DNA of 64,000 nt from Alistipes sp. (GTDB taxonomy: Bacteria > Bacteroidota > Bacteroidia > Bacteroidales > Rikenellaceae). Numbering within the stretch: position 1 is the stretch's first letter; every line of letters begins with the position of its first letter. The notes beneath the pieces are model-generated. The model ran no database searches and was not told the DNA's origin. It worked only from the letters and a program-made list of their open reading frames with translations. The position numbers and the translations under genes were made by a program. This document shows positions 2,569 through 12,417 of this stretch, in pieces. The stretch spans positions 246,268-310,267 of the forward strand of contig JAGBFA010000010.1 in assembly GCA_017936685.1 (NCBI GenBank), written 5' to 3'.

Positions 2569-4596
2569 TCAATTAAACTCTATGTTACCCTGCTTGTTAT
2601 CCCACGAGTGCACGGCAAAATCGAAATCGCCCCGGTCGGGGTTGTACGACACCTCGATGAGAATATTCAGAAAATCGTTGCGCGAGATCTCCGTAACATC
2701 ACTCACGGCTGCCGTCTGGCTGTCGATGGTCTGCAAATCGATCGTCTTCGAAGCAGACATGCCTTCCGGCTTCTGCTCGTATGTATACATCGAGAAGTAG
2801 GTTGCCGAAGTGGACATCGTCGTTGACGAGGTGACATACCTTCGGTTATTCGTGGTCGACCGTAAGGCGAAACCAGACCCCTGCGACACAATGGTAAACG
2901 TCTCGGCATCGCTCTGCTGATACGACAGGCCTATTGTATAAGTAGTCCACGAACTGCTTACCGTAAGATAATTGCCCGAAGAGAGATTTCGCAGGCGATA
3001 TCGATTATTGCCATTCGCTTCCAGCACCCATACCCCCTTCCAATCTTTTTTTTCGATCTGCGATCTCATTTCATCGGCAGACATGGTAGGGAAATCGATC
3101 TTGCCATCAGTCGTTTCGTAGAGCCATGCGTCCTTGTCGCAGATGGCAATTTGCCGGCCGGCGGCAAGAGAGCTTGCAGGTGAAGAGCCAATGGTGTACT
3201 GCTCCACGCCCGGATAACCCAACTCTATCGTATAATTGTATTTCTCGTTAGGATAGTTATCCAGACGCGAGGCCGAGATATAGGCATCGAATATGGCCGC
3301 CGTCTGTCCCTTCCTGATCTGGTTTTGGCCTGCTCCGACCTCCGATGCGTATGACGGGTCGTCGTTTTCGATTATATAGTATCTCCCGTTCGTCGGATCC
3401 CCTGCGGTCCAGTCGGGGTCGTTGTGCATTTTGGTCATGTAATATGGGAAAGCGATGACCGACTCGCCGTAAGAGACGACGGGCGCGCCCTGCATAAAAT
3501 CCAGATCGTCGAATATGTCGGCGGCACCCGGCATACGGCAGAAATAGGTCTTGTCCTTTGAGAAGTTCTCACTGAACGACAGTTTGCTGATCGACAACGC
3601 CTCCTCGCTGTAATTCTTCACCTCGATTCTCACGCGCGCATAGGTTCGATATAACGAAATGGGATCGGTGATGACGTTCTCGCCCGGTTGCAGATCGATA
3701 TAGGCCAGCGTATAGAGCGGCAGCTCGTCTAACTTCTTGCGGATATAGGGCTTATATGCCGGATCCTCCGGATCCTTGGTTTCGTCATAAGCCACATTCA
3801 ACTTATAATTATAGAGTGCCTCCTGCTTGAAATCGAAATTCGTTATTCCGCGACCATTGTTGCGAAGAAAATCGGTATCGTGGATCCAATCGTCGGAAGT
3901 GCCCTCTACGCCGTAGAAACGGTGCATGATGGAGTGAAGCTCGCGGACAAAGCCGTTTTTACCGGCCACGGCAGAGTGATCCGAGGGATTATCAATATCG
4001 TCCTGCGACAACGGCAGAGTGGCGTAGTTGGCCACGGCTATCAGCGCGTATTTACCGTGTTTGAGACGCTCCACATCGCCGTGCAGAGGGTTGTCGTAAT
4101 TGAATGTAAGGCGCACCGTATTGCTGTGCGGAAGCAGCGGATCGACCTTGCCGTATTTGTCGCTGGTCGGATCGGTATTCACGAACCCGTTGCCGCCATA
4201 GGGCGAATCGTCTTCGCACAGCAGCGGCGTATGAATGGGTTTGGCATCGTCCGCCACGTCGTCGCCGTTGTAGATGACATGACGATAGGCCACCAGCTCC
4301 TTGTTTATGACATCGACTAAAAACACCGTTACACGGCGTATGGTGCGGCCGTCGGCCAGCTTCTCCTCGTTGCTCCACCCCGAAGCATCGCCATCGGGAT
4401 CGGTCATGTTGCTGCGCGTCTCGACCGCGGCATTATATATGTCCGAAGCGCGCATCGTGACCGACAGGCTGGCAGGCTTGCGCTCGGGCTTCTGCTCGCC
4501 GTTTCCGCCGTCGTCGATGTCGTGCACGCAGCCGGTAGCGACGATGCAAAGCATCGCGACCTTGGCACATTGGATTATATTTCGCATTATCATCAT
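2569..4596 (-). CDS. FimB/Mfa2-like fimbrial anchor or minor subunit with beta-trefoil-like insert
   Basis: 675 aa lipoprotein: the signal runs to Cys23 (lipobox VATGC). Three Met codons lie within the first four residues, so the exact start is uncertain by a few bases. The body has fimbrillin-associated features (TVFLVD, KYALIAVANYAT, ARVRIEVKNYS) and ends with FDFAVHSWDNKQGNIEFN, typical of FimB/Mfa2-type subunits whose last strand closes the domain. Residues about 520-610 (WVLEANGNN...RYRLRNLSSGNYLTV...) look like ricin-type or related beta-trefoil repeats, unusual inside this family. Its ATG directly abuts the TAG of the preceding fimbrillin gene, so translation is probably coupled. In the P. 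gingivalis Fim and Mfa systems such proteins anchor or limit the pilus; the insert suggests glycan binding, but that is inference. Confidence 0.8.
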   Translation of the reverse strand: MMIMRNIIQCAKVAMLCIVATGCVHDIDDGGNGEQKPERKPASLSVTMRASDIYNAAVETRSNMTDPDGDASGWSNEEKLADGRTIRRVTVFLVDVINKELVAYRHVIYNGDDVADDAKPIHTPLLCEDDSPYGGNGFVNTDPTSDKYGKVDPLLPHSNTVRLTFNYDNPLHGDVERLKHGKYALIAVANYATLPLSQDDIDNPSDHSAVAGKNGFVRELHSIMHRFYGVEGTSDDWIHDTDFLRNNGRGITNFDFKQEALYNYKLNVAYDETKDPEDPAYKPYIRKKLDELPLYTLAYIDLQPGENVITDPISLYRTYARVRIEVKNYSEEALSISKLSFSENFSKDKTYFCRMPGAADIFDDLDFMQGAPVVSYGESVIAFPYYMTKMHNDPDWTAGDPTNGRYYIIENDDPSYASEVGAGQNQIRKGQTAAIFDAYISASRLDNYPNEKYNYTIELGYPGVEQYTIGSSPASSLAAGRQIAICDKDAWLYETTDGKIDFPTMSADEMRSQIEKKDWKGVWVLEANGNNRYRLRNLSSGNYLTVSSSWTTYTIGLSYQQSDAETFTIVSQGSGFALRSTTNNRRYVTSSTTMSTSATYFSMYTYEQKPEGMSASKTIDLQTIDSQTAAVSDVTEISRNDFLNILIEVSYNPDRGDFDFAVHSWDNKQGNIEFN

Positions 4597-5904
4597 CTAA
4601 AATTCAATCTGGGTCGAAGAGTATCTCATGTTCCAGTCGGCCACGGCAAGCGACAACTGCAAGTCGCTGCGACGTATCTTGACCGTATAGGTATAGCGTT
4701 TGCCGGCGCGCCAGCGGTCGTACTGTGCCGCCTGCGCGGCAGTGGGCACCTTATGGCCGTCGGCATCGACATAGTCGCCGTCATCATCGATCACCGGACC
4801 CGTATTTTTGGGTATGTTGACACGGAATACGGCCTCCTCGCCGCCGTGCTTGGTCTTGAAGCACAGCTGCAACTTGCCCGACGAGGTCTGCGGCATGATC
4901 AGAAGCCAGCCGCCGTTGCCGATGAAGGTCTCGCCCTTGGCCGTAGACTCGGCGTTGGAATCGTAGGCGTATGCCTTTTCTATCGGATCGAGCTCGCCCG
5001 TAGTCTCATTGCGCACGGTCGACATAGGCAGTCCGTTAGGCTCGCCGTCGGCACCGTAGGTGCACTTCCACTCATAGAAACGGTCGTACACAGGTGCGGG
5101 GCAGTAACTCTCCAACCACTGGAAATAGGCCTCCGACTCCGACTCCTTCGGCGGTTCGGCCGAGGTGAATATGCGGCCGCCCGACTCGCGCCGCTCGCAG
5201 AACAGAATGCCGCTCACGGCGAAATCCTCCTTTTCGGTATTCTCGAACCAGCAGGAGGTGATGACATCGGAGGTCTCGTAGTCCAACTGGAAGCAGATTC
5301 TCAACGCGGCAAGCGTATGACGGAAATATAGCTCGACGGCCTGCGCGGGATCGAAACCCTCGGCACCCGAATCGGCCTCGTTATAGGCTATGCACAGATC
5401 CTGCTGCACATTGTTGGAGAAGTATTCAAGCGACAGGGTCGAAATGTCGGACGACGTTACGGGGGATATTACAGAGGGATAGTAGGCGCGGAAGCGATAC
5501 GAGCAGTCGTCGAACCAATACCTGACCGGATCGTAGTACCAGCCCTCGCCTCCGTCCGAAGTGTCGCAGCGGAGCGGCGTGCGCGAGAATATCTGCACAT
5601 ACTCGGGACGGCTGCTCGACGCGAGTTCGTCATTGGGGCAATAGTCGCCCCAGATGGCAATGGCATTGCCGCCTTTGGCCGGATCGCACAGATCAGCCAG
5701 ATACTCCTCGCCCACACCGAGCGGTTTGCCGTCGGAACCGATAAGGCTCTTCTGCGAGGGCGATGCCGCAGCTCCGCTCACGCTGCCGAATATCATGGGC
5801 TTATCCGTTCCGACAGGTCCGGGTGAGGGCATGTCGGCATCGTGGCCGCAACCTGCGAGCAACACCGCCGCAATCATACATATATATAGTATAGGCCGTT
5901 TCAT
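4597..5904 (-). CDS. Fimbrillin family lipoprotein (Mfa-like), second accessory subunit
   Basis: 435 aa; the signal peptide ends in the clear lipobox LLAGC (Cys19). Family signatures of Bacteroidales fimbrillins are visible in order: a YWFDDCSYRFRAYYPSV segment near residue 130, FRHTLAALRICFQL near 190, GGWLLIMPQTSSGKLQL near 330, and the C-terminal WRAGKRYTYTVKI...VADWN block that ends every pilin in this locus. It is longer than the 300-360 aa of the two upstream fimbrillins. It lies 5 bp after the preceding fimbrillin gene, and its TAG touches the next ATG. Probable accessory or tip-proximal pilin, exported as a lipoprotein and matured at the cell surface; function inferred from family and position. 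Confidence 0.82.
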   Translation of the reverse strand: MKRPILYICMIAAVLLAGCGHDADMPSPGPVGTDKPMIFGSVSGAAASPSQKSLIGSDGKPLGVGEEYLADLCDPAKGGNAIAIWGDYCPNDELASSSRPEYVQIFSRTPLRCDTSDGGEGWYYDPVRYWFDDCSYRFRAYYPSVISPVTSSDISTLSLEYFSNNVQQDLCIAYNEADSGAEGFDPAQAVELYFRHTLAALRICFQLDYETSDVITSCWFENTEKEDFAVSGILFCERRESGGRIFTSAEPPKESESEAYFQWLESYCPAPVYDRFYEWKCTYGADGEPNGLPMSTVRNETTGELDPIEKAYAYDSNAESTAKGETFIGNGGWLLIMPQTSSGKLQLCFKTKHGGEEAVFRVNIPKNTGPVIDDDGDYVDADGHKVPTAAQAAQYDRWRAGKRYTYTVKIRRSDLQLSLAVADWNMRYSSTQIEF

Positions 5905-5909
5905 AACTG

Positions 5910-6809
5910 CTATATATCAAAATCAATTATCTCACACAGCAACTTCACATCGTCGGGCATCAGCGTCAGCGTGCATGTGTATCGCCGCCCCGGCTCGAAA
6001 ACTATATCGAGACTGCGGGTCGACAGATGTTGCGACAATACGTTTCCCGCCTCGTTGACATAGTCGAAATCCACCGTCACGGCGCACGTCACGTGCTGCG
6101 GTATGACAAAGCGGCTCTGCCCCACGCCGCGAATGGACTTGCCGGCGACCGCCTCGCCCTCGAAGAATAGCTGAGCAGAGCGGCTGCCCGTGGTCCGCCA
6201 CTGCGGCTGTCGCAGCGACGCGAAATCGCCGCACGGGAATATCTCTTCGAGCACCACGCGGCGCAGGCGTATCTCGCCAGCATCGGTTGCGGCACGGTGC
6301 ATACGGAACTGCAACTCGCATAAGGCATGACGGAACGGCATAGGCACCTGACCTCCGTTGTCGGTCTTCGACAGATCGGTCTGCGGATCGGTATAGAGCA
6401 GGTCGACCTGCGCGACAGAGGTATCGACATCGTGGAAAGTCACGCCGTCGTGCACGTCGCACCCGCCCGACTCCCCGCACGGGGCATAGCCCATGAAGGT
6501 GAGCCGCAGCGACGACTCCGGCCAGTTGACCGGCTCGGCCGCACGCCACACTCCGTCGGACTCCGTCACGCGCTCGCCCGAGAGGAACGCCTCGGCACGC
6601 CCGCTGCCGCTGCTCCACGGCACATCTGCCGGAAGCGACCATGCACCGACGCAGAACTCCGCCGGAACGGCAGCACCGTCACCGCCGGAACGCACCGAAG
6701 AGTAGATGGCCGGAGCGAACCCCAACTCCACGACGGGGTCGTATGCCTCGGGCTCATCGATGCAACCCGCGGCACAGAGCGACAACGCTATCCATATACT
6801 TCGCTTCAT
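5910..6809 (-). CDS. Fimbrillin family lipoprotein, first accessory subunit
   Basis: 299 aa from ATG 6809-6807. A longer frame begins at 6854, but the first 15 residues precede a perfect lipoprotein signal (MKRSIWIALSLCAAGC, Cys16), so the internal Met is chosen. Fimbrillin hallmarks are GYAPCGESGG near residue 100, FRHALCELQFRMHRA near 160, RFVIPQHVTCAVTVDFDY, and FEPGRRYTCTLTLMPDDVKL at the C-terminus. It is separated from the upstream fimbrillin by 107 bp that carry two tandem hairpins, which could lower its expression relative to the first fimbrillin. Very GC-rich compared with the upstream fimbrillin gene. Confidence 0.78.
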   Translation of the reverse strand: MKRSIWIALSLCAAGCIDEPEAYDPVVELGFAPAIYSSVRSGGDGAAVPAEFCVGAWSLPADVPWSSGSGRAEAFLSGERVTESDGVWRAAEPVNWPESSLRLTFMGYAPCGESGGCDVHDGVTFHDVDTSVAQVDLLYTDPQTDLSKTDNGGQVPMPFRHALCELQFRMHRAATDAGEIRLRRVVLEEIFPCGDFASLRQPQWRTTGSRSAQLFFEGEAVAGKSIRGVGQSRFVIPQHVTCAVTVDFDYVNEAGNVLSQHLSTRSLDIVFEPGRRYTCTLTLMPDDVKLLCEIIDFDI

Positions 6810-6838
6810 CTCCGAAAACACTCTTTTTTCGATAGTAC

Positions 6839-6891
6839 CTGCGGAGAGTATCACCTCTCCGCAGATCGTAATGGGGCATTTACCCTGCCCC
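6839..6891 (-). promoter_or_regulatory. Two intercistronic hairpins between first and second fimbrillin genes
   Basis: A perfect 10-bp stem (CTGCGGAGAG / CTCTCCGCAG at 6839-6848 and 6855-6864, 6-nt loop) and a second stem GGGGCA / TGCCCC (6873-6878 / 6886-6891). Neither is followed by a T-run on the minus strand, so they look like mRNA-stabilising or partial-termination structures rather than a full terminator. The position between the presumed stalk pilin and the accessory pilins would allow more stalk than accessory mRNA. Function is inference. Confidence 0.5.
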
Positions 6892-6916: not shown

Positions 6917-7990
6917 CTATTTCCCCCCCCCTGTACTTTCGTAGTCGACTTCTTGATCTTTCCAATCCTCAACCACGGGAGCGAACGTGATACGGTTCAA
7001 GCCGGCGTTGACAGTGTAGATATAACGCTTGCCGGGCAGCCACTCTACACCTTGATCAGTGCCATAGTCAAGCGTCGACAGATCGACCGTGCGATTCTGC
7101 TCGATTTCAGACAAAACATTGCCCGCCGCATCTTTATTGGTAATGGTATATGTAATGAGAGCGATCACATTACCGTCGGTTCCGCCGTGAGCCAGCGTCT
7201 GCGGCATCATAATACAAGGCTGGGCATTGGCAACATCGGCGGGAGTGGTGGTCAACACCTGATTGGCTCCGGTGACGGGAGTAATGACATACTCCTTATT
7301 GGTGTTGGTATTTGTCCATTCGGGAGCATTATCTACATTTAAGTCCCATGAGAAATTACCGTTCTGGTGTACATGCTGAAGCTGTATCGCCTTCAAAGTA
7401 ATAGTTGTATTGGCACCGAGATCGGCAACCAGACATACCTTGAACTTGATCGACGAAAGTGCATGATGGAACAGAATATCCACGCCGTTATATTCGTTTT
7501 TACCGGGAGTGTCGGCTGTATTCCTATTCTTCCTCAACTCACTGTAAAGCATATCGCGGTTACCGTTAGATATAGTTACGGCATCGGCTTTGAGTGTTTC
7601 CGGCGTACCGGTAATCTGGGGCTTCCATGTTGTATGGTCGGCCGGAGAATATGCCATGAAGGTCAGCAAACCATCTTTAGGCCAATAATAGTCCAGAGCC
7701 GGCACCCACGCATTAAGACCTAAGTTATACGAAACCGTTTCATTGGTAATGTAATTCTCACCGGCTGCCCACGAGGTAAACGTGCTTTGGTAGAATTTTG
7801 CATTGACTACGAAACTCTCGTTTTTGTCATAGAAAGTGCCGATCTCACCGGTCACACGCGTCGCGTTCTGCACGAGCGGAGCCTCGAACGATATCTTGGC
7901 ATCGGTTCCGACCGAGACCTCCTCCTCGTTCGTTACGCAAGCGGTCAAAGCTATGCCGGCTGCGATGGCTGCGAAGAAAAATTTTTTCAT
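6917..7990 (-). CDS. Fimbrillin family lipoprotein, candidate major (stalk) pilin
   Basis: 357 aa; the signal peptide ends ALTAC (Cys18). Fimbrillin features: YYWPKDGLLTFMAYSP near residue 105, DILFHHALSSIKFKVCL near 170, QPCIMMPQTLAHGG near 255, and WLPGKRYIYTVNAGLNRITFAPVVEDW near the end. It is the first of three fimbrillin genes, is followed by hairpins, and is less GC-rich than its neighbours, all compatible with the abundant stalk pilin. The C-terminus ...YESTGGGK is encoded by a run of nine G (6923-6931 on the plus strand as C); slippage by one would replace the last residue(s) by NS or EIVKD. Major-subunit status is inference. Confidence 0.85.
   Translation of the reverse strand: MKKFFFAAIAAGIALTACVTNEEEVSVGTDAKISFEAPLVQNATRVTGEIGTFYDKNESFVVNAKFYQSTFTSWAAGENYITNETVSYNLGLNAWVPALDYYWPKDGLLTFMAYSPADHTTWKPQITGTPETLKADAVTISNGNRDMLYSELRKNRNTADTPGKNEYNGVDILFHHALSSIKFKVCLVADLGANTTITLKAIQLQHVHQNGNFSWDLNVDNAPEWTNTNTNKEYVITPVTGANQVLTTTPADVANAQPCIMMPQTLAHGGTDGNVIALITYTITNKDAAGNVLSEIEQNRTVDLSTLDYGTDQGVEWLPGKRYIYTVNAGLNRITFAPVVEDWKDQEVDYESTGGGK
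6923..6931 (-). repeat. Homopolymer C9/G9 tract in the last codons of the first fimbrillin
   Basis: Nine consecutive C on the plus strand, read as ACA GGG GGG GGG AAA TAG in the gene. Loss of one G gives ...GGGNS stop; gain of one gives ...GGGEIVKD stop. Long G tracts are classical slipped-strand sites. Confidence 0.9.
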
Positions 7991-8053: not shown

Positions 8054-9094
8054 TCAGATGATTATGTCGGTATTGATATCGCCCCAATCGCCGACACCCG
8101 GGGTGAATCCTCCGCCCGAGTTTACCGGTTCGGGTATCTCGATGATCTCGTCGAGCAGTATCCACTGATGCTCGACGGCATCTGGTTCGGAGAACTTGTC
8201 GGTGATGTCGATCGTCGCACTGAGTGCGCGGCCGTCGACGGTGATGAAGTCGAAAGCCACTTCCAGACGGTTGTCGTGATCGGGCAGCTTGCCGAAGGTG
8301 CCGAACGTGGTGTAGATGGTGGTCAGATCGTCGCTGCGCGCCGAACGGTCGTCGGAGCGGTTCATCTCGAAATAGATCGTAGCCGGATTATCCGAGCGCA
8401 CGCCGCGATCGTGCAGTATCGTCGAGCCGGCCATGCCCGTCAAAAGCGACACGGCCGTCGAGGCGTACTGCATGCCCTTGACGCGTATTTGCAGATAGTA
8501 CGACTTGACAACGCTGCGGGCGGTGAAATAGTCGCCCTGCTCGTTGCGCAGCGTATCCACATAGTTGCGCGCAGGGATATGCACGCGCTGGCAGCCGTCG
8601 ACGAAGAGATGATCGGGATCATAGACGATACGCTCGGAATCATCGGCATCGGCACGGCTTGGCAGATAGTTGTAGAGGTGTGCCGCAATGTCGTTGGTAT
8701 AGGCCTCGACCGATCCGTAGTCGCTTTCGCGGCGCAGGACGGTGGACTCGGTACCGAAATTGTATGTCAGCAGGCAGTAGTCGCCCGGATCGGCGGATAT
8801 GTAACCGTCGCAGAAGGCACCGCGCTCGTCGCGCCCCGAACCTCGCAGATAGCGTTCGCCGGCCACCTTGCCCGTCGAGGGATCGAACAGAGCCACGCGC
8901 ATGACCGTCGGGGTGGCATACTCGGGACGGCGGTTGTTCTGGTCGTAAAAGCCTGTGGTGACATTGAGCAGCTCCTCGTCGATATAGACGCGGACATAGT
9001 GCGTGTTCTCGATATCGACCAACGGACGGCGATGACAGCCCGCAGCAGAGAGCAGCAGCAGAGCCAAAGCGGCATATCGCATCAGACGTTTCAT
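8054..9094 (-). CDS. DUF5119-type lipoprotein of fimbrillin locus
   Basis: 346 aa from ATG 9094-9092. An upstream in-frame Met at 9178 lies inside the preceding gene, whereas this start has a lipoprotein signal (LLLLSAAGC, Cys20) and a near-perfect Shine-Dalgarno AAAGGAGG 6-13 bp upstream, unusual in Bacteroidetes. The start overlaps the upstream stop as ATGA. The sequence HYVRVYIDEELLNVTTGF, DPSTGKVAGERYLRG and DYCLLTYNFGTESTV resembles DUF5119, proteins usually encoded beside DUF3575 and fimbrillin genes. Its biochemical role is not established; an assembly or minor-subunit role is inferred from location. Confidence 0.75.
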   Translation of the reverse strand: MKRLMRYAALALLLLSAAGCHRRPLVDIENTHYVRVYIDEELLNVTTGFYDQNNRRPEYATPTVMRVALFDPSTGKVAGERYLRGSGRDERGAFCDGYISADPGDYCLLTYNFGTESTVLRRESDYGSVEAYTNDIAAHLYNYLPSRADADDSERIVYDPDHLFVDGCQRVHIPARNYVDTLRNEQGDYFTARSVVKSYYLQIRVKGMQYASTAVSLLTGMAGSTILHDRGVRSDNPATIYFEMNRSDDRSARSDDLTTIYTTFGTFGKLPDHDNRLEVAFDFITVDGRALSATIDITDKFSEPDAVEHQWILLDEIIEIPEPVNSGGGFTPGVGDWGDINTDIII

Positions 9095-10419
9095 CGGCGG
9101 CCTCCTTTCTTGGTGTAGTTGCACAATATGGGGCATACCAACGCTATCTCCACCTTCGTCGGACCGAAATAGTTCCATGTACCCGACTTGCTGCGGTCAC
9201 GCACTAACAGCGACCAGTCGTCGGTGGGGATATAGTGGCGGTGAGGTATGCGGGCATAACCTGCCGAGATGGAAAATTCGAGATTGAGACGCTTGCATAT
9301 CGGCATCGAGTAGCCGTAGGTGACTCCAACGCTGAAAAACTCGCCCTGATAGCAGCCAGTGCGCTTGGCCTGCAAGTCGAACTTGCCGCCCCAGCCGTAG
9401 AGACCGACGAAGTGGCCGACCAGCGCGTCGCGCTTGACAAGATCGGCACTCGCCTCCCTGAATCGCGGAGAGAACCACCAGCGGAACTCGCCGCCGAAAG
9501 AGAGAAATTCCAGACAGAATTTGTTGCTATCGGTCACCCACCACGGGCAGTGATGCTCGTAAAGTATGGAGAAGCGTCGTGCGATGGGCACCTCGACGGC
9601 GAAATTGAGCCATGTGGCCGCATCGTAGAGCAGATTGGTTTTCAGAGCGAGTATGGTGCGCTTGTCGCGCTGCGGCTCGACGAGTGGCTCGATGCTGCGG
9701 GTAACTTTCGGCAGCTCGATCTGCGTGGGCTGCGGCGCAATACGGCCGCCGAACGATGCAGGCACGCCGGCCAGAGGTTCGAGCTTGACGGCGGGGTGTT
9801 CCCACACGCATATCCATGTGGCCACACGCAACTCGGGCATGTGGCGGCGTATTATATAATCGTATGTATAGCCGTTGTCGAGCTGCTGCAAACGCCACTT
9901 CTTGGTGTCGTTGCCCACAGGCGCATCTAAGATGGCCAATACGCGGTCGCGGTCGGCACGATGGTAGTTGGCCTCGATCTCCTCGCGCAAACCCACCCAG
10001 TTCTCGGCCATGGGCCGCAGGATAATGCGGTCGGGATCGATTGCCGCATCGTCGCCCAGATGCTCGATGATATAGCGGCGCGCTGCCTCGGCACGCTTGC
10101 GTGCAAGCCACACGTTGTGCTCGTAGACACCCTCGGGCGAGGCATAGGCATAAATGGCTATGCTGTCGATGTGAGGCGATCGCGCAAGATACTCCTTGAT
10201 GTGGTCGGTCTGACGACGGTTGTCGAGGTAATTCTCGTCGATATCTATACGATCGCGCCAATAATATATCGCGAAGCTCTCGACCACAGAGTTTCCGATA
10301 GGCTGGAATTTATCAATTCCCCCCCCCTCACATATACGCGTAAAATCCTGCGCATGAATATCATGCACATTCATCAACGCCAAAAGCGAGATCAATATCG
10401 ACAAACAGTAATATTTCAT
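9091..10419 (-). CDS. DUF3575 outer-membrane protein with OmpA-like N-terminal region, first gene of pilus operon
   Basis: 442 aa with a cleavable signal (MKYYCLSILISLLALMNVHDIHA). Residues about 45-180 resemble an OmpA-like fold (ESFAIYYWRDRIDID, SIAIYAYASPEG, ARKRAEAARRYI). Residues about 255-440 match DUF3575 (LALKTNLLYDAATWLNFAVE, FGGEFRWWF, FVGLYGWGGKFDLQ, GEFFSVGVTYGYSMP), a predicted outer-membrane barrel. Codons 31-34 (Glu-Gly-Gly-Gly) contain a run of nine G: eight G would stop at about residue 57, and ten G would stop at once. It is the first gene after the operon promoter, and its stop overlaps the DUF5119 start. Probably the outer-membrane component of the pilus assembly locus; the mechanism is unknown. 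Confidence 0.82.
   Translation of the reverse strand: MKYYCLSILISLLALMNVHDIHAQDFTRICEGGGIDKFQPIGNSVVESFAIYYWRDRIDIDENYLDNRRQTDHIKEYLARSPHIDSIAIYAYASPEGVYEHNVWLARKRAEAARRYIIEHLGDDAAIDPDRIILRPMAENWVGLREEIEANYHRADRDRVLAILDAPVGNDTKKWRLQQLDNGYTYDYIIRRHMPELRVATWICVWEHPAVKLEPLAGVPASFGGRIAPQPTQIELPKVTRSIEPLVEPQRDKRTILALKTNLLYDAATWLNFAVEVPIARRFSILYEHHCPWWVTDSNKFCLEFLSFGGEFRWWFSPRFREASADLVKRDALVGHFVGLYGWGGKFDLQAKRTGCYQGEFFSVGVTYGYSMPICKRLNLEFSISAGYARIPHRHYIPTDDWSLLVRDRSKSGTWNYFGPTKVEIALVCPILCNYTKKGGRR
10319..10327 (-). repeat. Homopolymer C9/G9 tract in codons 31-34 of the DUF3575 gene
   Basis: Nine C on the plus strand, read GAG GGG GGG GGA in the gene just after the signal peptide. Both plus-one and minus-one slips cause early stops, so this is a candidate on/off contingency site for the first gene of the pilus operon. 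Confidence 0.92.
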
Positions 10420-10544
10420 TATAATCCTACCGTTTCAAATCCGTGACCCGACCGCCGCAACCGTCATTGCAAACAGATACCCGACAATCGGTTGCCCACT
10501 CTCACAGCGGCAACTCGCGAGATTAAAAAATTTGTTAATTGATG

Positions 10545-10576
10545 CAAAGTTATGACCTTTTTTATTTAAAAACAAA
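10545..10576 (-). promoter_or_regulatory. Pilus operon promoter (TTTG-N20-TAACTTTG)
   Basis: On the minus strand TTTG (10576-10573), 20 bp, then TAACTTTG (10552-10545), matching the Bacteroidetes primary sigma consensus TTTG-N19/20-TAnnTTTG. It lies about 125 bp upstream of the DUF3575 start, giving a leader of roughly 118 nt. The surrounding DNA is very AT-rich. Confidence 0.75.
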
Positions 10577-10594
10577 AAAATTCGGAACAAAAAT

Positions 10595-10603
10595 CCCCCC
10601 CCC
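10595..10603 (-). repeat. Homopolymer C9/G9 tract upstream of the pilus promoter
   Basis: Nine C on the plus strand, 19 bp upstream of the -33 box of the pilus promoter (around position -57 to -65). Length changes would alter spacing between the promoter and any upstream activator site. Confidence 0.85.
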
Positions 10604-10781
10604 TATAAAATACCGCCAATAGCTTCTATTATGCCCTGCAAACCAATATATTACACCCCGAAATAATTTATTCGAACGAACGAACCGACGACGAAATCGA
10701 GCCTAATTTTGTACCGTCCGGCTTATCTCGGAGCGCAGACATGTCAATTCGTAACCTCTTCAACCGCCGGCAATATACGAA
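10604..10781. other. Intergenic stretch, no gene seen
   Basis: AT-rich leader giving way to ordinary composition. A plus-strand TAATTTTG box sits at 10704-10711 but no convincing gene follows it; a GAACGAACGAACC short tandem occurs near 10675. I see no other signal. Confidence 0.4.
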
Positions 10782-10842
10782 TCGTGCCGCCTCGGACGAT
10801 CCGAGACGGCACGACACCGTCGGGTGCAAACGGCATGCACCC
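10782..10842 (-). terminator. Hairpin pair downstream of the 81-aa gene
   Basis: A 15-bp stem with a single wobble (10782-10796 / 10800-10814, loop of 3) and a second stem GGGTGC / GCACCC (10822-10827 / 10837-10842), directly after the stop of the minus-strand 81-aa gene at 10847. No long T-run follows, so termination strength is uncertain. Confidence 0.5.
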
Positions 10843-10846
10843 TGCC

Positions 10847-11092
10847 CTATCCGCGGCTCTCCATGCTATCGGCCGAGGGGTTGACCGTTATGGTCTCCTG
10901 CTCGATCTGCCGCATGGTGGGCTGCTCCGATGCATCATGCGGCGGCATGATGCCTTCGTCGGCCAGCACGTCGTCGGCCGACAGTTGAGTCACAGGGCTC
11001 ATAGCTCCGGCCTGCGGCATCGGGGCACGCCTGTCGACCGGACGTCCGTCGCGCTCGGCCACACATGTATTGTCATTACTCTTTTGCTTCAT
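10847..11092 (-). CDS. Hypothetical 81-aa protein
   Basis: Small hydrophilic, acidic protein without signal peptide or recognisable domain; the middle is rich in Pro, Gln and Met (MPQAGAMSPVTQLSADDVL). Codon choice (frequent GCC GAC, TCG GCC, GAG CAG) matches the neighbouring real genes, and a pair of hairpins follows its stop, which supports expression. It stands alone between the pilus operon and repeat elements. No function can be assigned. Confidence 0.55.
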   Translation of the reverse strand: MKQKSNDNTCVAERDGRPVDRRAPMPQAGAMSPVTQLSADDVLADEGIMPPHDASEQPTMRQIEQETITVNPSADSMESRG

Positions 11093-11165
11093 GATCCAAG
11101 GATTTTATCACCCGTTCCAGAGCAAAAGTCGTACCGGCACGCCCCCCCGACATCGCATGCGCGAA

Positions 11166-11391
11166 CGAAGAATCTGGTTGTGGACGACAAGGCCATCGTA
11201 CTGTCACTCCGAGGAGCCGCAGGCGACGTGGGAGTCTCGCCGGCGGGAGCAAGTTTGGTGCACAGGAATTTGTCGACCAAAAGAGATTCTCACGTCGCGT
11301 TCCACAGAACGCTCCTCAGAATGACAGGACGAGTGTTTTTGTCGTCCACAACCAGATTCTTCGTTTCATTTCATTCCACTCAGAATGACAG
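11166..11391 (+). repeat. B-family hairpin repeat interrupted by an A-family copy
   Basis: A perfect 25-bp inverted repeat: 11166-11190 (CGAAGAATCTGGTTGTGG + ACGACAA) and 11339-11363, followed on the right by TTCATTCCACTCAGAATGACAG ending at 11391. The arms match uninterrupted B copies elsewhere in the window. Between them lies a complete A element (11201-11327), so A appears to have entered B. Confidence 0.85.
11201..11327 (+). repeat. A-family inverted-repeat element, copy 1
   Basis: 127 bp. Left end CTGTCACTCCGAGGAGC, then CGACGTGGGAGTCTC; right end GAGATTCTCACGTCGCG, then GCTCCTCAGAATGACAG. The two arms are imperfect inverted repeats differing at fixed transition positions in every copy. 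No coding capacity of its own. Confidence 0.85.
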
Positions 11392-11425
11392 AACAATGGA
11401 ATAGTCTCCAAAGCACTATGCGCTA

Positions 11426-11550
11426 CTTTTTCGTCAAAAGGCATTAGTTGCAAGCCGCACGTGAAAAGGACGCAGATGGGCTGTACTTAGCGTACTGCCC
11501 ATTTGCGGACTTGAACGAGGCGAAGCAAATGATGCCTTTTCACGAAAAAG
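11426..11550 (+). repeat. E-family long palindrome, copy 1, adjoining a promoter
   Basis: 125 bp. Outer arms CTTTTTCGTCAAAAGGCAT (11426-11444) and its inverse ending at 11550; the middle arms pair imperfectly; centre ATGGGCTGTAC-TTAGC-GTACTGCCCAT (11476-11502). A second copy is at 60506-60626. It ends 14 bp before the TATCTTTA box of the following esterase gene. Confidence 0.85.
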
Positions 11551-11564
11551 TCACGAAAAAGTTG

Positions 11565-11572
11565 TATCTTTA
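11565..11572 (+). promoter_or_regulatory. Promoter -7 box (TATCTTTA) for esterase gene
   Basis: Near-consensus TAnnTTTG box (last base A) 20 bp before the ATG of the esterase gene. The region where the -33 box should be falls at the end of the E palindrome. Confidence 0.5.
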
Positions 11573-11592
11573 TACCCAAAACTATTATTGTC

Positions 11593-12417
11593 ATGAAAAG
11601 ATTTCTACTGATGATCTGCGTGGCCATGTGTGCCATGACCGCATCGGCACAGCAGACCACATACCAGACCCAGCGAGACATTTGCTATGCCACCTCGGAG
11701 GATCAATATGCTGCGGAGAGATGCAAACTCGATGTCTACTACCCGCAGGATACAACGGGCTGTCCGGTGGTGGTGTGGTTCCACGGAGGAGGTCTCACGG
11801 GAGGCAACAAATACATACCGAAGCCGCTGAGAGAGTGCGGCATGGTGGTGGTGGCGGTAAACTACCGTCTGATGCCTAAGGTCGACATAGAGGAGTGCAT
11901 AGACGATGCGGCCGCAGCCGTGGCATGGACGTTCAATCATGCCGAAGAGTACGGCGGCGACGTGCGCAAGATATTCGTCGCAGGACACTCGGCCGGCGGC
12001 TACCTCACCTCGATGATAGGATTGGACAAGACGTGGCTGGCGAAATACGGAATCGATGCCGACTCGATAGCGGCACTGGCACCGTTCAGCGGACAGGCCA
12101 TAACACATTTCGGATACCGCCAGCAGCACGGCATAGAGGCCACGCGCCCAACGATTGACTCGTTAGCACCGCTCTACCATGTGCGCGGCGATGCACCTCC
12201 GTTGATAATCATATCGGGCGACAGGGAGCTGGAGCTTTACGGCCGCTACGAGGAGCAGGCATATTTCTGGCGCATGATGAAACTCAACGGCCACACCGAG
12301 ACCTACCTCTACGAACTCGACGGCTTCAATCACGGAAAGATGGCCACGCCGGCGTTCCACATTCTCAAAAACCACATAGCAGCCATAGTCGCAAAGAGCG
12401 GCGGGAAAAGCGAATAG
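11593..12417 (+). CDS. Secreted alpha/beta hydrolase (esterase, HSL/BD-FAE-like)
   Basis: 274 aa with a signal peptide ending TASA-Q. The oxyanion motif HGGG is at residues 64-67 and the nucleophile elbow GHSAGG at 131-136 (Ser133). The probable acid is Asp210 (ISGDRE) and the base His247 (DGFNHGKM), a complete serine hydrolase triad. HGGG plus GHSAG places it with hormone-sensitive-lipase-like and carbohydrate acetyl/feruloyl esterases, so the likely reaction is hydrolysis of a short-chain ester in the periplasm; the substrate is unknown. Monocistronic, with the E palindrome and a promoter box upstream, and convergent with rmuC. Confidence 0.85.
   Translation: MKRFLLMICVAMCAMTASAQQTTYQTQRDICYATSEDQYAAERCKLDVYYPQDTTGCPVVVWFHGGGLTGGNKYIPKPLRECGMVVVAVNYRLMPKVDIEECIDDAAAAVAWTFNHAEEYGGDVRKIFVAGHSAGGYLTSMIGLDKTWLAKYGIDADSIAALAPFSGQAITHFGYRQQHGIEATRPTIDSLAPLYHVRGDAPPLIIISGDRELELYGRYEEQAYFWRMMKLNGHTETYLYELDGFNHGKMATPAFHILKNHIAAIVAKSGGKSE

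Follow-up and report, generated by a model that had tools for sequence, protein, structure and literature searches.

The run of nine G residues near the start of the first gene of a pilus operon in this Alistipes sp. is quite probably a slipped-strand poly-G contingency locus which, judging from the sequence, would belong to a genus-wide phasome and would give a type V pilus operon both a promoter and a coding switch. Poly-G tracts are well known as slip-prone on/off switches in some pathogens, and Alistipes is a common gut genus. The window, the whole stretch of 64,000 nucleotides that was analysed, carries the operon as six genes on the reverse strand:

9091..10419 (-), first gene of the operon, DUF3575 (PF12099) by Pfam, with an OmpA match below the Pfam cut-off
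8054..9094 (-), DUF5119 (PF17145) gene by Pfam, its start overlapping the preceding stop (ATGA) in the sequence
6917..7990 (-), fimbrillin-like lipoprotein gene, named from its place and leader, without Pfam or NCBIfam match
5910..6854 (-), fimbrillin-like gene, Mfa_like_1 (PF13149) by Pfam; translation probably starts at an internal ATG of the ORF
4597..5904 (-), fimbrillin-like gene, Mfa_like_1 (PF13149) by Pfam
2569..4596 (-), last, large pilin-like gene, a possible tip, with a weak ricin-B-lectin-like match near the C-terminus

The ricin-B-lectin-like match of the last product reached 22.3 bits, under the Pfam cut-off of 25.6, and an NCBIfam search with all six operon proteins returned no match. 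In type V pilus operons, DUF3575 and DUF5119 genes accompany pilins of the Mfa/FimA superfamily. Here DUF3575 and DUF5119 are the first two genes and are accompanied by two Mfa_like_1 genes, and the gene order fits a type V pilus operon. A fimbrial operon with DUF3575 at its head had been proposed in an earlier reading of the DNA (hereafter the sequence-only reading). That reading had described only the tract inside the first gene, and two additional G9 tracts were found in the same operon, one of them close to a putative promoter:

10319..10327 (-), G9 tract in codons 31-34 of the DUF3575 gene, behind a leader that by eye resembles a signal peptide
10595..10603 (-), second G9 tract, upstream of the putative operon promoter, ending 42 bp before the -7 box
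10573..10576 (-), TTTG, putative -33 box by consensus matching only, with a 20 bp spacer to the -7 box
10545..10552 (-), TAACTTTG, putative -7 box by consensus matching (consensus TANNTTTG), 125 nt before the ATG
6923..6931 (-), third G9 tract, near the 3' end of the fimbrillin-like gene 6917..7990 (codon 354 of 357), read from the sequence

The in-gene tract is C9 on the forward strand and G9 on the coding strand of the ORF 9091-10419, where it begins at nucleotide 93, in codon 31, and its position and codons were reproduced as first reported. When the frames were computed for each tract length, the ORF gave a product of 442 residues with nine Gs, 57 with eight and 35 with ten, confirming the claim that any single slip abolishes the frame. 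G/C runs quickly become scarce in the 64-kb window, with counts of 209, 11, 0, 1 and 0 for lengths 4 to 8, yet three runs have length 9; all three G9s are located within or just 5' of the pilus operon and read as G on its coding strand. The six GGGGGGGG matches were reached in none of 100 dinucleotide shuffles (mean 0.89, largest 5). When the 39 tracts of the genome were placed at random, three came to lie within 4 kb in 1491 of 20000 trials, so that their clustering is, on its own, only mildly unusual. By placement and frame, the in-gene tract is a homopolymer beyond chance expectation, sited where a change in length alters the frame and would alter expression, as in a contingency locus.

We take TTTG to be the -33 motif of Bacteroidota promoters. 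The -7 consensus, TANNTTTGY, is that given in parts of a 2025 review of gut Bacteroidales (PMC12632263). The promoter-side G9 (10595-10603) is a better candidate than the in-gene tract for control of the whole operon. An invertible promoter was considered and rejected, as the inverted repeats found at 10300-11600 (11164-11365 and 11425-11551) do not flank 10420-10720. The repeat at 11164-11365 is a perfect 27-nt inverted repeat with 148 nt between its arms, intergenic and beside the operon, and GAAGAATCTG-type repeats resembling it adjoin some G runs elsewhere in the own genome. As for the third tract, a change in its length alters only the last few residues of the fimbrillin-like protein, and it may be a bystander or may act on the next gene, in likeness to the tract at the 3' end of Campylobacter cj0045, which, according to a Campylobacter review, may act on the downstream gene (PMC8355987).

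The reach of the in-gene tract can be read in a narrower way, as a variant of the preferred explanation that keeps slippage: the tract would switch DUF3575 only, the rest of the operon would be made anyway, and pilus assembly or display would be altered. The downstream genes do have their own start codons and the promoter-side G9 is a separate element, but the ATGA overlap between the DUF3575 stop and the DUF5119 start, which had been claimed earlier and is present in the sequence, suggests translational coupling, and we place this variant slightly short of an even chance. Through that overlap, or through polarity, a break in the DUF3575 frame may affect the downstream genes.

Comparison with 11 orthologues of the DUF3575 gene (at least 60% identity, own gene included) revealed that the site of the tract is kept while its length and frame vary. 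The tract lies directly behind a leader resembling a signal peptide, as judged by eye, in nine of the 11; it is in frame in five of these nine (the own gene, G162, G053, G013 and G154), every one a G9, and out of frame in four, namely G166 (G8), G002 (G9), G158 (G10) and G163 (G10), indicating that in-frame and out-of-frame alleles both occur naturally. Besides the nine, one orthologue (G159) has an interrupted G4-A-G4 at the tract site, and another (G023) has a different N-terminus without the tract, with tracts in other places; a tract broken in close relatives had been named in the sequence-only reading as evidence against the switch. Among the five in-frame orthologues the start of the run (92, 97, 87, 90 and 96 nt from the ATG) falls on each of the three codon positions, so it is the DNA run that is conserved and not the peptide, and a conserved glycine peptide was rejected.

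The one clear pair of close relatives that differ in tract length, both being species-level genomes and not strains, is G053 (G9, in frame) and G158 (G10, out of frame), which are 94.6% identical over 2.4 kb, as measured on a named contig taken as the counterpart of G053, and whose tract flanks of 105-150 nt are 94-99% identical. At least six pairs of tracts could be matched between these two genomes among the matches listed (100 of 161 and 50 of 141 places, which is weak as a systematic test); three had the same length and three had changed, two of the latter with altered flanks too. In G158 (L082, around 1310-1525) the leader and the G tract are duplicated in tandem, with a G9 and a G10 copy, as if leader-plus-tract units can duplicate.

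The promoter-side tract also recurs. Among the 10 orthologues with upstream sequence (the contig of G166 ends too early), six, the own gene included, have a G9 before the -7 box, at distances of 42, 41, 22, 20, 33 and 31 bp, and the remaining four showed no such tract in front of a -7 box in a search over 650 bp. Proteins related to DUF3575 are encoded at 14 named loci, the best eight of them titled Alistipes, and one of them is the same contig as an own-genus hit (100% over 2884 bases). In 10 of the 14 named loci (8 titled Alistipes, 6.4 to 11.3 kb each), 12 of 13 G/C runs of at least 8 fall in the interval from -534 to +414 relative to the matched body, none was found beyond +414, and two loci have no run of this length. 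Upstream of the body of the orthologue of isolate An66 (L085), a long degenerate five-residue repeat (QQEGV-like) replaces the poly-G leader. The first ~60 bases of contig CAMWIG010000111.1 (L080/L065) resemble untrimmed Nextera sequencing adapter, and the first bases upstream of that orthologue look artificial.

A census of poly-G runs placed the tract in a larger class. The own genome has 39 runs of at least eight Gs, made up of 36 G9, two G8 and one G10, next to four runs of exactly G7, and its A runs decay normally without a peak (16 A9 and 4 A10; run counts derived from overlapping matches, 77 for G and 24 for A). Summed over 61 Alistipes genomes, own included, which share kinship and are not independent samples, there are 529 G8, 1421 G9 and 97 G10, and G9 outnumbers G8 in 53 genomes, equals it in two and falls below it in six. 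The 118 genomes of the order outside Alistipes, one of them belonging to the family of Alistipes, total 1093 G8 and 353 G9, with G9 ahead in 10 genomes, eight of which have three G9 or fewer; G187 (10 G9 against 5 G8) and G270 (9 against 7) are order genomes with such an excess. Another genome of the order outside the genus, G271, is rich in G tracts for its size, with 97 G8 and 28 G9 in 1.3 Mb. Within Alistipes, G030 has 47 G8 against 28 G9, and its modal tract length may be eight rather than nine. The mutS gene was found over the cut-off in 39 of 41 genomes, so the genus is no general mutator through mutS loss, and loss of mismatch repair was rejected as an explanation.

A neutral or technical origin of the peak, either by a homopolymer expansion bias or by assembly or base-calling in which long G runs are rounded to nine, strikes us as very improbable. 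Many of the genomes used look like metagenome assemblies in their completeness and number of contigs, and sequencing errors are frequent in long G runs; however, the A runs of the own genome show the normal decay, the order-wide sample, handled alike, lacks the peak, and these two controls led us to reject a platform artefact. Moreover, the peak is present in 53 of 61 genomes of the genus and in the single-contig genome G158, where 75 of 106 tracts among the matches listed are G9, and isolate An66 has two G9 at the DUF3575 locus (L066). Neutral drift, for its part, would leave the placement at gene 5' ends and in promoters unexplained.

Such placement is apparent in the own genome. In our reading of the 39 tracts, 12 are in frame and fall among the first 100 codons of their gene (one counted from a TTG start), three lie later in genes, about 14 are upstream of a gene on the sense strand, and about 10 are in dispersed repeats or at spots without an obvious gene. 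The genes with early-codon tracts mostly concern the surface and include three SusC/TonB receptors, a GH5-like lipoprotein, a sulfatase, a calcineurin-like phosphoesterase, a TonB-C/plug protein, a GT90-like protein, a hexapeptide transferase, two putative lipoproteins and DUF3575, the lipoproteins being called by eye. The 45-nt tract flanks are identical at two loci of the own genome, L035 and L050, which also have in common an ORF of 501 aa further downstream, with the G9 placed before a TATATTTG box; the ORF of L035 is a sodium:solute symporter according to Pfam, which was consulted for this locus only.

Promoter-side tracts show an ordered relation to the -7 box across the genus. In 180 Alistipes genomes, a G9 followed by TANNTTTG at 4-34 bp was matched 196 times, compared to 39 times for the reversed pattern, and in a smaller scan of 218 distinct tracts, 15 were followed by a TANNTTTG box in the next 50 bp, whereas the reverse strand gave 3 boxes and the upstream side 2. 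The offsets were analysed in 146 strings (130 distinct) among the matches listed, where they peak at 7-8 bp (48), 10-11 bp (23) and 20-24 bp (22); among the same matches, none falls at 16-18 bp and five fall within 13-19 bp. Given a spacer of ~20 bp, we infer that a tract at the missing offsets of 16-18 bp would run into the -33 box. The promoter tract of the window is grouped with those upstream of the -33 box by analogy only, its 42 bp being outside the 4-34 bp search. A helical (10.5 bp) spacing of the tracts, prompted by the six upstream tracts, gave p about 0.002 in the larger set for offsets of at least 13 bp (n=44) and is not claimed, because the test was post hoc and partly reflects the gap at -33.

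The sharpness of the peak at nine, together with the regular placement of promoter tracts relative to the -7 box, could also be expected if G9 were a DNA element of fixed length, such as a protein-binding site or a promoter spacer, in which the exact length is selected without switching by slippage, the coding copies being incidental or serving internal promoters. We regard this as unlikely, given that coding tracts occur early in many unrelated genes and that the DUF3575 orthologues show G8, G9 and G10 at one site, in and out of frame. The uniformity of the tracts (36 of 39 are G9) could reflect slow slippage or selection for exactly nine. In Campylobacter, according to a review, an insertion bias at G8 and a deletion bias at G11 and longer appear to hold lengths mainly at G9/G10 (PMC8355987); as slippage bias alone appears to hold lengths there, a sharp peak needs no fixed-length function, and a uniform tract length is no argument against slippage.

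Under the preferred explanation, a slipped-strand contingency locus, replication slippage at the G run would shift its length by one or more. Nine Gs would place the leader peptide in frame with the DUF3575 outer-membrane protein, and with eight or ten the chain would end after 57 or 35 residues, leaving an out-of-frame cell without the first protein of the pilus operon until a later slip restored the frame; within a population, cells would switch, with an effect on their pili. The tract is a member of the Alistipes G9 set kept at a modal length of nine, many members of which are found either early in surface genes, up to codon ~100, or in promoters, where they lie in the spacer of the -33 and -7 boxes or immediately 5' of the -33 box. 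Since the pilus operon has one coding and one promoter tract, it probably has two independent switches, one of translation and one of transcription. The proposal made from the sequence alone is borne out in part: the slip-prone switch is well supported by a site kept across orthologues with varying length and frame and by a G9 class that is genome- and genus-wide, and the in-gene tract is at most a candidate for switching the whole operon.

Poly-G phase variation as a kind is already known. The Campylobacter jejuni phasome is similar in that each genome carries numerous G/C tracts, most of them inside ORFs and fewer between genes, at lengths of mainly G9/G10 (PMC8355987). In contrast, Alistipes belongs to another phylum, its peak is almost only G9, the layout follows Bacteroidota -33/-7 promoters, and its switching is putative. 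The fim3 promoter of Bordetella pertussis likewise has a homopolymer, a C tract, in a fimbrial promoter; fim3 fimbriae are of the chaperone-usher kind, whereas the present operon would encode type V pili and has an extra tract in the coding frame. Within Bacteroidales, the invertible promoters of Bacteroides (capsules, SusC/SusD, fimbriae) serve surface genes of the same classes, including fimbriae that are phase-variable (PMC12632263), but unlike the Alistipes tract they work by site-specific DNA inversion. In gut Bacteroidales, DNA inversion is the best-known source of variation at the surface (PMC12632263; PMC11868660), and the words slipped and homopolymer are absent from the main text of the former.

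Two further reports come close to parts of the present picture. In a polysaccharide locus of Bacteroides fragilis YCH46, an extra C in a run of four Cs causes a frameshift, and slipped-strand mispairing was proposed as a possible source of variation; this concerns one short run in one strain, and long G tracts across the genome are not described in the part of that 2010 report consulted (PMC3090145). A survey of 5' homopolymeric tracts as gene-inactivation elements found them concentrated near gene 5' ends, as here, with emphasis on poly-A/poly-T, and neither Bacteroid nor Alistipes appears in its main text (PMC2831843). No account of poly-G switching in Alistipes was found in the open-licence PMC literature, judged mainly by titles and the beginnings of abstracts, and the same literature yielded no phasome driven by slippage in this genus, no description of its promoter layout and no type V pilus operon under two-tier control. 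On balance, we lean towards a genome-wide poly-G phasome in Alistipes, with up to many tens of tracts per genome and a set point of nine, combining coding switches at leader peptides with promoter switches of Bacteroidota layout (the tract inside the -33/-7 spacer or abutting the -33 box, rarely overlapping it) and giving type V pili a two-tier control independent of DNA inversions.

If true, pili, nutrient receptors and glycan genes would flip at random in each population of Alistipes, assemblies would misreport genes as present or broken, and comparisons of strains would need tract calling. The same tracts would also offer a test system for the upkeep of a homopolymer set point of nine and for the tuning of a -33/-7 promoter by the length of its spacer.
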